Below, in pieces: positions 45,893 to 57,164 of a DNA stretch of 64,000 nucleotides. This DNA comes from Bacillus sp. F19 (GTDB taxonomy: Bacteria > Bacillota > Bacilli > Bacillales > Bacillaceae). Below the pieces are notes generated by a model. It saw only the letters and a list, made by a program, of their open reading frames with translations. It had not been told where the DNA came from and made no database searches. Every line of letters begins with the position of its first letter. The first letter of the stretch is position 1. Location of the stretch: assembly GCA_023823795.1 (NCBI GenBank), contig CP085710.1, positions 4,800,001 to 4,864,000 of the forward strand. Direction: 5' to 3'. A program made the position numbers and the translations under genes.

Positions 45893-45920
45893 ACCAGTCC
45901 GGGTTTGGACTGGTTTTTTT
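45893..45920 (+). terminator. Intrinsic terminator of the ywqB-ywqA transcript
   Basis: ACCAGTCC pairs perfectly with GGACTGGT around a 6-base loop, followed by seven T. Confidence 0.9.
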
Positions 45921-45934
45921 ATGTTTGTTTAGTG

Positions 45935-46119
45935 GTTTTTCTAAATGCAGTTGGGTATTTAAGGTTTTGGAGGTAGCTGTTGGTATGGAAATTCCGTTAG
46001 ACAGTTGGATTACTTTCCAATATGGGGTTTTTACTTGCCGGAATGGCTCTTTTACTGGCAGGAATCGGACAAATACTTGCCAGTTTGGATTATATACTAT
46101 CTTTTTTCCAGATACCTCC
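45935..46119. repeat. Diverged single copy of the 21-bp-module repeat
   Basis: The core 46008-46119 aligns over its length with the array units at 49.4-50.3 kb: TACTTTCC, TTACTTGCCGGAATG, CTCTTTTACT, ATACTTGCCAGTTTGG and CTTTTTTCCAGATACCTCC, with ACT about every 21 bases. Its left flank (TCTAAATGCAGTTGGGTATT near 45943) also matches the spacer half of the array unit, so this is a whole diverged unit. It lies between the convergent ywqA and ssbB transcripts, after the terminator. The weak open frames inside it are not genes. Confidence 0.75.
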
Positions 46120-46238
46120 ATCTCTTCAAGCAATTTTTGTCCCTTCACAAGAAAGAACTAGCCGGAGAGGGCCGGCTAGTTAAGTGAGGAAGTGGGGAGT
46201 TCGTTGATTCTGTTTCTGTGAGGGGGTTTGAGGGTTTG

Positions 46239-48294: not shown

Positions 48295-49266
48295 TTATTT
48301 TAAAATGGGGAGCTGGTATTTGCGGTTTTTGTAGGAGCCAGTGTGGTGGAGGTTTAGTACTGTTAATAATTTTGACGCAGAGCTCATGGAGGAGATTCTT
48401 AGAAACTGCCTTATTTCTTTATTTGTAATGGTTGGCCCAAGCAACAAAGCGTAATCATTCAAAGAGGCAATATAAGCTTCTTTAGATGTAAACATACATT
48501 TTTTGCAAACCCAGCTTCCGCTAACTTTTTTCATCGGGATTGAAAAGCATTTTATGCAATGAACACCCGTTATTAAATCTGACTTTGATAGGTGAAATAG
48601 TTGAAGAAGATCTGGGTTATTTGGTGAGTGGTGTTTAATAAGCTGCCTTGACAGCTTATTTAAATCCTTAATTGTTAAAAGCTGGTCTTTATAACGATTA
48701 TCTAATAAATGAATTTTATCTTGGAGTGAGCCTGCATGTATCACTTTTTTCAACACTGTTTCTGAGTAGTTTGGAATGGTTTTAAGAATCGTTGCGGGAT
48801 TGCTGATGACGATATAAGAATGTAGTGGCATACTAGGGTAATTGTGTTCAGACAGCCATGTTTGAAGATTTTTCTGTTGGCGCCTCACTTGGAGAATTGG
48901 ATCAGGAAACGCTTCTTCACGTCCATTTATTGTTCGTATTAGTTGTTTAAATGTTTGATCGAAACATAGTGTTCCACTCATATTTTTCACTTCAAGAATT
49001 AGAATATAGGATCTAGTTAAGATAACAATATCTAATTGAAAATAATATTCTTTATTCAGCAGTCGAATATCGTGCAGAACAAGGAACTCTTTCCTTAATA
49101 ACGGAAGCAAATGATAATCAATAGACTGTTCACCGCGATAGCCTGCCATATTTTTAGCATACTCCTCTTCAATTTTAGCTCTTACTGTATGGTTCTGGGG
49201 CAGCCTCCTTAGTAAAGCCTGCAGTTTTTGAATTTTTATTGGTAATTGTTGTTCTTTTTTTATCAA
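48295..49266 (-). CDS. NERD domain protein with zinc ribbon
   Basis: The 323-aa protein has a nuclease-related (NERD) domain at about 40-160: RGEQSIDYHLLPLLRKEFLV, LDIVILTRSYILILEVKNMS. The D...E.K triad of restriction-like nucleases is present in LDIVILT and EVKN. A four-cysteine ribbon CIKCFSIPMKKVSGSWVCKKC lies near 240 and a short helix-turn-helix-like end (TNKEIRQFLRISSMSSASKL) follows. It may cut or bind DNA; the substrate is unknown. It stands alone, directly before the tandem-repeat array. Confidence 0.85.
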   Translation of the reverse strand: MIKKEQQLPIKIQKLQALLRRLPQNHTVRAKIEEEYAKNMAGYRGEQSIDYHLLPLLRKEFLVLHDIRLLNKEYYFQLDIVILTRSYILILEVKNMSGTLCFDQTFKQLIRTINGREEAFPDPILQVRRQQKNLQTWLSEHNYPSMPLHSYIVISNPATILKTIPNYSETVLKKVIHAGSLQDKIHLLDNRYKDQLLTIKDLNKLSRQLIKHHSPNNPDLLQLFHLSKSDLITGVHCIKCFSIPMKKVSGSWVCKKCMFTSKEAYIASLNDYALLLGPTITNKEIRQFLRISSMSSASKLLTVLNLHHTGSYKNRKYQLPILK

Positions 49267-49349: not shown

Positions 49350-50345
49350 TAATTGAGTTTTGGTTTTTTCTATCGTTTCAAGGGTTTTAAGTTTTGAATG
49401 TGATTTGCTGCTCAGATTCAAGGATGAAGGTGATTTACTTTCCAAAATGGGACTTTTACTTGCCGGAATGCCTCTTTTACTAGCGAGAACCTGGGAAATA
49501 CTAGCCAGTTTGGGTGCAATATTTTCTTTTTTCCAGATACCTCCTAAATAGCGGAGCTGATCTTATTTTCAGGCTCAATTCCTCTATTTCTGCGCTAATA
49601 TAGACTTTTTTCTAATTGCACTTGGCTATTTAGGCTTTTTCTTTTGATCTGGATGGAATCTGACTGTGGTTTGCCGCTCAGATCTTCTGATGTTTCAGAT
49701 TTACTTTCCAAAATGGGACTTTTACTTGCCGGAATGCCTCTTTTACTAGCGAGAACCTGGGAAATACTAGCCAGTTTGGGTGCAATACTTTCTTTTTTCC
49801 AGATACCTCCTAAATAGCGGAGCTGATCTTATTTTCAGGCTCAATTCTTCTATTTCTGCGCTAATATAGGCTTTTTTCTAATTGCACTTGGCTATTTAGG
49901 TTTGTTCTTTTGAAAAGGAGGGAATCTGACTGTGGTTTGCCGCTCAGATCTTCTGATGATTCAGATTTACTTTCCATAATGGGACTTTTACTTGCCGGAA
50001 TGCCTCTTTTACTAGCGAGAAACAGGTAAATACTAGCCAGTTTAGGTGCAATACTTTCTTTTTTCCAGATACCTCCTAAATAACGAAGCTGATCTTATTT
50101 TCAGGCTCAATTTCTCTTTTTCTGCGCTAATATAGGCTTTTTTCTAATTGCACTTGGCTATTCAGGCTTTTTCTTTTTGAACTGGATGGAATCTGACTGT
50201 GGTTTGCCTTTCAGATTCAAGGATGATTCAGATTTACTTTCCAAAATGGGACTTTTACTTGCCGGAATGCCTCTTTTACTAGCGAGAACTGGGGAAATAC
50301 TAGCCAGTTTGAAAGTAATACTTCCCTTTTTCCAGATACCTCCTA
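49350..50345. repeat. Tandem array of about 266-bp units, each with five 21-bp modules
   Basis: Four cores begin at 49432, 49698, 49964 and 50231, that is 266, 266 and 267 bases apart. Each core of about 118 bases carries the trinucleotide ACT at offsets 6, 27, 48, 69 and (three of the four) 90, so an exact 21-base period. Typical modules are TTTACTTTCCAAAATGGGAC, TTTACTTGCCGGAATGCCTC and AATACTAGCCAGTTTGG, ending CTTTTTTCCAGATACCTCC. The intervening 148 bases are also conserved (GAGCTGATCTTATTTTCAGG, TCTAATTGCACTTGGCTATT, GAATCTGACTGTGGTTTGCC). The first unit is incomplete on its left. Short open frames cross the units on both strands but none has a convincing ribosome binding site. The array fills nearly all of the 1.1 kb between the NERD gene and fabZ. 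Confidence 0.92.
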
Positions 50346-50360
50346 AAATCAGCAAAAAAA

Positions 50361-50390
50361 AAAACGATCCCAACAAGGATCGTCTCAAAA
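50361..50390 (-). terminator. Intrinsic terminator of fabZ
   Basis: ACGATCC pairs with GGATCGT around a 5-6-base loop, followed on the minus strand by a run of more than ten T. Confidence 0.85.
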
Positions 50391-50392
50391 AT

Positions 50393-50827
50393 CTATTCTT
50401 TCTTTTCACCCAACGCAAACATCAATTCTGTTTCACATACGACTTCGCCGTTTACTGTAGCGACGCCTTTGCCTTTGCCGAGTGATCCGCGCAGACGGAT
50501 AATTTCAACTTCGAGGCGGAGCTGGTCGCCTGGTGTTACTTGCTTTTTGAAGCGGCAGTTGTCGATGCCTGCGAAGAAGGCTAGGCGGCCGCGGTTTTCT
50601 TCTTTGATCAGCATGGCTACAGCGCCGACTTGGGCGAGTGCTTCAACGATTAAGACGCCTGGCATAACTGGGTATTCTGGGAAATGGCCGTTGAAGAATT
50701 CTTCGTTTGCTGTTACGTTTTTTAGCCCGATTGCACGCTTGCCTTCGTCTACTTCAAGGATTTGATCGATGAGCAGGAATGGATAACGGTGCGGAATGAT
50801 TTCTTTGATTTGTGTGATGTCTAACAT
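50393..50827 (-). CDS. fabZ: 3-hydroxyacyl-[ACP] dehydratase
   Basis: The 144-aa hot-dog-fold enzyme dehydrates 3-hydroxyacyl-ACP in type II fatty acid synthesis. Signature residues are [14 protein letters not shown], the catalytic His in [20 protein letters not shown] (residues about 47-66, with the conserved Glu), and [19 protein letters not shown]. Start ATG at 50827 with AGGAGG about 7 bases upstream. In B. subtilis it also lies near flhO-flhP-mbl. Confidence 0.95.
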
Positions 50828-54856: not shown

Positions 54857-55813
54857 TTAAGCGTTTTTTGTGCTGATTGAAGCTTCAGATTGGTCTTGTG
54901 AATTCCCTTTTTCTGATCCTTCTTTACCAGCGTCTTCTTTTTCTTTTTCTTCTTCAGCACCTTTTTTGTCTTCAGTGCCTTTTTCAGCGTCTTCTTTTTC
55001 TTTTTCTTGTTCAGTGCCTTTTTCTTCTTCAGCACCTTTTTCTTCTTCAGCGCCTTTTTCTTCGCCTTCAATACCTTCTTCTTCTTTAACTGGCTGTTCT
55101 TTTACAGGCTTAGCTTCTTTTTCAACATTCACGTCGTTTAAAGAAGTAAGTGGTTTGTCCATGAAGTCTAATGGATTGACTGCAACGCCATCTTTGCGGA
55201 TTTCAAAGTGTACATGTACGCCATCTTCTTCTTGGATCAGGCTTTTTCCGGCTTGTCCGATGATTTCGTTTTGCTCAACTTCGTCACCAGCTGCAACCAT
55301 CATGCTTGCTAAAGATTGGTAAACAGTTGTCACGCCATCTTTGTGCTCGATTTCAATGACATTTCCAAGTAATGGATCTTTTTCAGCTTTCGTAACAGTT
55401 CCGCTTAGTGAAGCTGCAACTTCGAATTCCTTGCCATCTTCTTTTGCCAAGTCAATTCCTTTGCTAGGCTCGTACGTATTATTATAGGAAACGAGTGCTG
55501 CTTCTTGCTCTGCTGCTGTTGCATCTTTTTCATAGAACTTACGGATAACTGATACTGCGTCTGAATCAGCTGCCGGCATTGCGAAATTTTCTACAGCTGA
55601 GTTCACTTCTTGAGTCGGCTCATCTTGATAAGATGTTCCTTGGTCAATCGGATCATTTGCTGAATCTCCATTGCCTAAAGCCTGATACCATAACACGGCT
55701 GTCAAAATCAATGCTGCACTTACTAAGTAGATTGCTGGGAATACCCAACGCTTTCTGAAGAATTGTTGCATTTTCGAGTTTTGAGAAGTACGTTTAGTTT
55801 CTTCCTCTCTCAT
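54857..55813 (-). CDS. spoIIQ: SpoIIQ, forespore LytM-domain protein, with long Lys/Glu tail
   Basis: The 318-aa forespore membrane protein has a helix at about 24-43, a linker, and an M23/LytM domain at about 117-217. The first metal site reads SKGID (Ser instead of His), the later YQSL also lacks the His, while HVHFE is kept, so it is non-catalytic like known SpoIIQ. It binds SpoIIIAH across the septum. Residues 231-318 are a highly charged repetitive tail (EEEKGAEEEKGTEQEKEKED and similar) longer than in B. subtilis; its DNA is repetitive too. A candidate SigF promoter lies 20-50 bases upstream. Confidence 0.9.
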   Translation of the reverse strand: MREEETKRTSQNSKMQQFFRKRWVFPAIYLVSAALILTAVLWYQALGNGDSANDPIDQGTSYQDEPTQEVNSAVENFAMPAADSDAVSVIRKFYEKDATAAEQEAALVSYNNTYEPSKGIDLAKEDGKEFEVAASLSGTVTKAEKDPLLGNVIEIEHKDGVTTVYQSLASMMVAAGDEVEQNEIIGQAGKSLIQEEDGVHVHFEIRKDGVAVNPLDFMDKPLTSLNDVNVEKEAKPVKEQPVKEEEGIEGEEKGAEEEKGAEEEKGTEQEKEKEDAEKGTEDKKGAEEEKEKEDAGKEGSEKGNSQDQSEASISTKNA

Positions 55814-57005: not shown

Positions 57006-57122
57006 GATTTACTTTCCAAAAGAAGACTTTTACTTTCCAAAATGCCATTCTTACTGGCGAAAATCGGTAAAATACTTTTCAATTTGAAAGAAACACTTCC
57101 CTTTTTCCAATCATTTCCTAAA
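57006..57122. repeat. Single copy of the 21-bp-module repeat core
   Basis: Starting GATTTACTTTCCAAAAG, the segment carries ACT at the same 21-base spacing five times (TTTACTTTCC, TTTACTTTCCAAAATGCC, CTTACTGGCG, ATACTTTTC, ACACTTCCC) and ends CCCTTTTTCCAATCATTTCC. It matches the array cores at 49.4-50.3 kb but is more diverged and lacks the spacer half. It lies between the convergent GNAT and spoIID transcripts. Confidence 0.75.
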
Positions 57123-57129
57123 CCAGGAT

Positions 57130-57164
57130 ACAAAAAAGCGCAGGCAAAAATCCCCTGCGCTCTC
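57130..57164 (-). terminator. Intrinsic terminator of spoIID
   Basis: AGCGCAGG pairs perfectly with CCTGCGCT around 9 bases; a T6 run follows on the minus strand. Confidence 0.85.

Follow-up and report, generated by a model that had tools for sequence, protein, structure and literature searches.

What is a repeat whose modules recur at two turns of the DNA helix behind fabZ in Bacillus sp. F19, and what might read it? The window, i.e., the whole stretch of 64,000 nucleotides that was analysed, had earlier been interpreted from its letters alone as holding a tandem array of 266-bp units in six copies, and both parts of this claim were borne out. Tandem Repeats Finder reported a period of 266 with 3.4 copies and 92% matches at 49432-50347, and the cores of the units hold 21-bp sub-arrays. 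By this search and by the unit spacing (266, 266, and 267), a home cluster at 49395..50347 on the minus strand consists of four tandem units of 266-267 bp with one array each. All four arrays are matched on the minus strand by R1, a sequence-only model built from 17 copies of the own genome. Array 1, with a header and four modules at period 21, lies at 49432..49545 (E 8.3e-26; a near-identical copy is in the R1 training set). It is followed by array 2 (49698..49811, E 5.0e-27, itself an R1 training copy), array 3 (49964..50077, E 3.7e-26), and array 4 (50231..50344, E 7.9e-26). Directly upstream of array 4, a hairpin with a T-run (50354..50382, minus strand) is terminator-like by its sequence and by a terminator test, and it stands behind fabZ itself (50393..50827, minus strand, TIGR01750 above cut-off). 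Two diverged single copies, recognized by repeat spacing and R1, complete the six. One is at 46007..46119 (minus strand), behind an ssb-family gene assigned by family search and its hairpin (46156-46181), and the other is at 57006..57118 (minus strand), behind spoIID (TIGR02870) and its hairpin (57132-57162). When scored with a weight matrix derived from the six cores, these cores, which are its own training set, reach 124 to 170, and every other site, on both strands of the window, stays below 0.

Each unit core holds about five modules at 21 bp with the motif GGMAAGTAWW on the minus strand. The sequence-only reading had called the modules exact. The natural orientation is the minus strand, on which an AGGAG-n4-NTGGAAAAAAGAAAGTA header comes first and is followed by four further modules that end in GGMAAGTAWW. 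The 21-bp spacing is indeed exact, but the module sequence is not: roughly half of the positions are kept and the remainder is variable. Similarly, the common orientation that had been described holds for the six copies in the window but not genome-wide, where both strands are used.

The repeat is not a peculiarity of this stretch. The sequence-only reading had proposed a search of the core against the genome and its relatives and was to be given up if the copies were confined to one contig. They occur elsewhere in the genome and in other genomes, so it passed its own test. With one unit as the query, blastn matched the own genome 31 times at E <= 1. R1 returned 44 at the same threshold, with 26 below 1e-5 at 21 loci. 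At E <= 0.01, R1 matched 16 of 41 genomes (the own genome and 40 relatives), and all eight genomes of the genus, the own one included, carry 15 to 33 matches each. Most copies, and likewise most of those in the own genome, belong to orthologous groups common to several species. Of the 21 own R1 loci, 17 are in the half of the chromosome nearer the origin (p 0.007, uncorrected for gene density; dnaA at C1:22). The surroundings were analysed with 136 copies from fetched loci, which remained once duplicates and those lying too close to the end of a locus had been dropped; 103 of these are strong and ungapped. The genes upstream of the copies are diverse. For 101 of the 136 copies, the first gene upstream shares the strand of the copy, and this holds for the majority in 15 of 21 orthologous groups. 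A hairpin with a T-run within 110 nt upstream was found for 62 of the 136 copies, compared with 28 when the reverse strand was searched and 20 when the downstream side was. When counted by orthologous group, the figures are 10 of 21 against 4 and 4 in the controls. By this hairpin test, therefore, under half of the copies have a terminator-like hairpin. Two arrays of the own genome, at G000:C1:4867955-4868263, lie between putative nuoH and nuoI genes, on the operon strand; the header there starts at the stop codon of the first of the two genes.

The next point is what kind of molecule is under selection. Among 485 module intervals, 398 are of 21 bp, which confirms that the spacing is kept in further copies; 23 are of 20 or 22 bp and none is of 18 or 24 bp. 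Changes of 1 bp occur and changes by a codon never do, so the constraint is on helical phase and not on codons. In 135 orthologue pairs (33 others were skipped for shifted or weak alignment), the conserved columns are 92% identical and the variable columns 53%, in a comparison that is blind to copies lost or decayed past recognition. When the pairs are sorted by species, the divergence is 5-13% in motif columns, 24-69% in spacers, and 8-61% at 4-fold codon sites in the upstream genes. In the closest species pairs, the motif diverges about as much as the 4-fold sites, and in distant pairs it stays far behind them. Since the motif is kept while the spacers diverge strongly between orthologues, the array is selected as double-stranded DNA.

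Two other natures had been considered from the beginning, namely a structured RNA and a decayed heptad-repeat coding unit, and judged by its sequence features the repeat is neither. Some observations would suit them. In 101 of the 103 strong copies, AGGAG is followed at four bases by an NTG triplet (e.g., the header at 49534-49545, minus strand), in the manner of a ribosome-binding site with a start codon. In two reading frames, stops are also rarer than after column shuffling (88 against 104.6, sd 7.3, and 117 against 139.1, sd 8.0). This deficit of 2-3 sd was put down to the relatedness of the copies. No open frame consistently follows the AGGAG-NTG header, despite its resemblance to a translation start. 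Stops are present in all six frames of the copies, the best frame is open in 43 of the 103 strong copies compared with 36 by column shuffling, and headers differ in other motif variants. RNAalifold found no consensus base pair in 17 copies, and an Rfam search of the window gave no match above the gathering score. With spacing changes of 1 bp, none of 3 bp, and a period of 20 in relatives, a structured RNA or small coding unit is very improbable.

If the array is DNA to be bound, the neighbouring gene deserves attention. Adjoining the home cluster, whose arrays lie 5' of it, a gene absent from the sequence-only reading (48295..49266, minus strand) encodes a protein of 323 amino acids. This protein matches the NERD family (PF08378, E 2e-20) with 73.8 bits against a curated cut-off of 22.1. 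Pfam gave NERD and one sub-threshold family, and no tyrosine (HUH) transposase. In 69 homologues, E46, Q77, D79, E92, K94, and Q126, which we take to be the catalytic residues of the nuclease, are each at least 95% conserved, as are four cysteines (Zn residues). The C-terminal segment looks HTH-like. With its domain match, conserved residues, and the array linkage of its homologues, this NERD-nuclease, Zn-ribbon, and HTH-like protein is the proposed cognate of the arrays. Its homologues were first met beside arrays with other motifs. At E <= 1e-10, 27 of the 41 genomes contain homologues, with 102 matches in all. At E <= 1e-30, 3 of 299 genomes of the phylum do: the own genome, that of one congener, and another from the same order. 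A phage or plasmid origin was rejected; neither the protein nor, in a plasmid collection, the DNA of the repeat unit gave a match. A stand-alone HTH reader was rejected as well, since a profile of the C-terminus found NERD-sized frames or fragments alone in six congeners.

The NERD genes and the arrays are linked well beyond this locus. Of the 102 NERD matches, 70 were examined (30 retrieved as loci and 40 picked by protein score prior to the array search), and an array was called when 10 of 21 columns were kept in 4 of 5 units. The control consisted of 100 random windows, each 3,960 bases long, which were drawn from stretches of DNA in 11 of the 27 NERD genomes. A period-21 array lies within 1.5 kb of the gene at 53 of the 70 NERD loci, compared with 7 of the 100 random windows. 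Eight further NERD loci have period 20, so that period 20 or 21 is found at 61 of 70 against 8 of 100; at this threshold, neither occurs at 9 of the 70. A period of 20 in relatives is again two helix turns and is not a multiple of three. Other periods at the 70 loci were scarce for 16-19, 22, and 23 (0-3). Counted against the control, the figures were 15 and 1 for period 20, 16 and 7 for period 24, and 14 and 15 for period 27. Clustering of the proteins at 70% identity leaves 53 clusters, 41 of them with an array, and 26 of the 27 genomes have at least one. The best array is 5' of the NERD gene at 41 of the 53 loci and 3' at 12. Random intergenic DNA gave 1 array in the 71 kb taken from NERD-bearing genomes and none in the 67 kb from genomes that lack NERD (4 and 1, respectively, at a laxer threshold). 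In a further set of 80 named loci with SpoIIID at the centre, 52 matches had period 21, compared with 4-14 for other periods from 15 to 30; these raw counts include some runs of N and coding repeats. NERD presence was not a significant predictor of arrays near SpoIIID in these 80 named genomes (7/16 against 21/64, p 0.56; at a laxer threshold 11/16 against 26/64, p 0.054) and was rejected in that role. Of the options first raised for the repeat, a protein-binding array is favoured by the spacing tolerance, the period of 20 in relatives, the motif constraint, and the NERD-type genes adjoining arrays.

The motif also follows the protein. In other genera, R1 detects arrays with the same period and other motifs (TTGGACAGTAAA, AGCAAATAAA, TCGAAAATAAA, and AACGGAAARTAAA), which can be described as dialects. 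Some of these occupy the same intergenic region as copies of the genus, e.g., behind a putative prfB. Among 1378 pairs of NERD proteins, the home motifs are alike in 11 of 11 pairs with at least 80% identity, intermediate in likeness at 60-80% (12 pairs), and at background below 60%. Likeness of motif goes with likeness of the nuclease domain no less closely than with that of the HTH segment. Neither domain is thereby marked as the reader, and the HTH could not be separated from the nuclease domain as the one that sets specificity. Side observations were made in two further genomes. At G013:C1:1250149-1251100, a NERD homologue frameshifted into two frames lies beside TTGGACAGTAAA arrays, and G013 has many other TTGGACAGTAAA copies. 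In Neobacillus rhizophilus, the dialects GGAAAGTAAA and GGCGAGTAAA occur within 20 kb, in tandem units each with a terminator-like hairpin.

Scattered arrays follow the same rule within the genus. A second dialect model, R2, was built from home arrays of a second NERD type in G000, G002, and G006. In these three carriers, the source of its training arrays, it has 49, 41, and 36 matches, respectively, with about ten loci besides home in G000. In non-carriers, it has 9 in G003, which has a 74%-identical NERD relative, 4 in G001, 7 in G007, and 0 in both G004 and G005. A dialect with the AACCCC motif AATTAATTTCAAAACCCC stands beside a pair of NERD genes (93% identical) that were found only in G001 and G007. 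Its matches number 37 and 22 in these two genomes, 1 in G006, and 0 in the five others, and a reversed control pattern gave 0. G002 has a 64%-identical relative of this NERD type, with a different motif. Both genes and motifs are clade-specific in these two cases, and the scatter is therefore partly shared history. At one orthologous place, the carriers have 6 R2 arrays (G000, as 4 + 2 split over 670-680 kb), 5 (G002), and 3 (G006); the non-carriers G001 and G007 have one each, that of G001 clearly eroded. The fabZ locus of G001 holds a single eroded array and no NERD gene. Across G000, G002, G003, G004, G006, and G001, this locus has NERD genes 93% to 56% identical to that of the window, or none. 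NERD alleles appear to have been swapped here, with the flanking genes staying alike. A search for a NERD gene of the GGMAAGTA dialect in G001, G006, and G007 found none, though GGMAAGTA arrays are well kept there. This may reflect recent losses, another reader, or a host role. Since arrays outlive some NERD genes, strict dependence on the gene is disfavoured.

Because a NERD gene adjoins it, the repeat becomes one half of a candidate two-part system. We consider it moderately probable that this is a cognate nuclease-array system that works in the manner of RAYT and REP with unrelated parts. About five copies of a motif of about 10 bp are presented on one helix face through the two-turn (21-bp) period, and several NERD protomers would line up on that face of one array. 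The likeliest reader would be the adjoining NERD nuclease of the PD-(D/E)xK type, with its Zn ribbon and HTH-like C-terminus. Each protein group has its own motif dialect. Its home arrays cluster next to the gene, in most cases on the 5' side, from where they may regulate it, and matching arrays are scattered between genes, often behind terminators. The protein would bind its own arrays and may nick or cut them, which could lead to tandem growth and to slow spread into harmless gene ends; bound arrays would then be maintained by selection. The analysis demonstrates the periodicity, the selection on the motif, the linkage of gene and array, and the matching of dialects; we infer binding, cleavage, spread, and host benefit as parts of this proposed system.

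Plasmid iterons offer a familiar comparison: about five direct repeats stand two helix turns apart and are read by a protein encoded nearby. The arrays here are instead chromosomal and number many per genome, their neighbour is a NERD gene, and neither the NERD protein nor the repeat unit matches the plasmid collection. PglW shares the NERD nuclease domain (PADLOC E 0.0019), but only about 80 residues align, and the Zn-ribbon/HTH-like C-terminus and the linked arrays fall outside the match. The closest likeness is with REP/BIME repeats and RAYT transposases. In the published account, rayt genes are flanked by their own REPs, the two coevolve, and REP abundance tracks the rayt gene (PMC2817692). 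The parallels are a chromosomal enzyme gene flanked by its own repeats, scattered extragenic copies, a dialect that changes with the enzyme, and abundance that tracks the gene (PMC2817692, PMC3116915). An enzyme gene linked to its own repeats, with a dialect following the enzyme, is found here too, as analogy and not homology. REPs are palindromic and RAYT is a tyrosine (HUH) transposase, whereas the arrays here are direct and helically phased, without a consensus pair in 17 copies, and the partner is a NERD nuclease. STAR elements of staphylococci resemble the arrays in being interspersed direct repeats of intergenic DNA that grow and shrink in number and have locus-specific spacers, but no partner gene is named in their abstract (PMC3532100). 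In that abstract, STAR sites vary between species, whereas most copies here are orthologously placed across the genus (PMC3532100). The candidate system has the defining features of no repeat family tested, and as a protein-plus-DNA system it looks undescribed. Term searches of titles and abstract openings in the open-licence literature returned no work that connects NERD proteins to repeats and none on phased intergenic arrays with a 21-bp period.

Other explanations can account for part of these data. The arrays might instead serve the host chromosome: some other resident DNA-binding protein would occupy the phased sites, these would act as barriers or topological insulators where genes end, and NERD genes would merely use the sites for their own control or sit in array-rich regions. 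The motif is still constrained in genomes without a matching NERD gene, and the upstream hairpins, the same-strand upstream genes, and the origin-proximal loci all agree with such a role. It leaves unexplained that every NERD group is accompanied by a motif of its own and that several dialects occur in one genome. The copies between the putative nuoH and nuoI stand on the operon strand, where a barrier would be unwelcome, and the C-terminal profile, in a search limited to relatives of the NERD C-terminus, gave no other candidate reader. We regard a purely host function as unlikely, if worth keeping in mind. Alternatively, home arrays could be nothing but NERD operators and scattered arrays by-products that soak up a harmful nuclease, with no protein-driven spread. 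The predominance of arrays 5' of the gene fits this proposal, and a nuclease would presumably need control. The loci with the best array 3', the clusters remote from the NERD gene with up to about ten arrays, and the persistence of arrays after gene loss speak against it, and autoregulation with titration alone seems improbable to us.

Old mobile DNA without function, whose motif conservation would be only apparent, is harder still to defend. Its interspersed repeats and the differing numbers of tandem units between orthologous clusters would be natural for such DNA. Against this, motif columns change far less than spacers, in an analysis to which vanished copies are invisible, and most own copies belong to groups common to other species. 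The nuclease-array system is our preferred reading, and a broader version of it can be put forward tentatively, with somewhat more doubt than belief. Bacillales would carry a chromosomal family of NERD nucleases, each member reading, building, and policing private helically phased arrays, with several mutually blind dialects per genome, alleles swapped at fixed loci, and arrays that outlive the gene kept for the host's own use. The RAYT/REP logic would then have been invented twice, the second time with unrelated parts. If true, a large class of intergenic repeats in Bacillaceae that lack annotation would be accounted for, and a protein family often present several times per genome would gain a role. 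Additionally, dozens of natural protein-motif pairs with diverged specificity would become available for studying how DNA recognition changes, and the old question of why bacteria keep interspersed repeats would become directly testable in harmless soil bacteria.

Several minor sequence features accompany the arrays. A second common motif, TAAATA[CG]CCAA[CG]TGCA, lies about 160-180 nt downstream of the header, in the window at 45914-45968 and in the spacers of the 266-bp units. This 3' tail is present in 21 of the 136 copies, compared with 1 in shuffles, and was rejected as a general array part. A TGTCGAA header, which we liken to a Spo0A box, occurs in 13 of 231 arrays and 8 of 114 at home loci, compared with 19 of 1000 control windows. 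It is enriched but confined to some lineages, and for this reason it was dropped as a general part. The imperfect tandem repeats at 54907-55086 of the window lie inside the C-terminal coding part of spoIIQ (54857-55813), where they encode a Glu/Lys-rich tail, and are unrelated to the arrays. Finally, G000:C1:3246330-3246714 holds a near-perfect tandem array of the 21-bp unit TTCAAATTTAATTCCGATACT, a weak R1 match in which the spacers, unlike those of the main arrays, are invariant.
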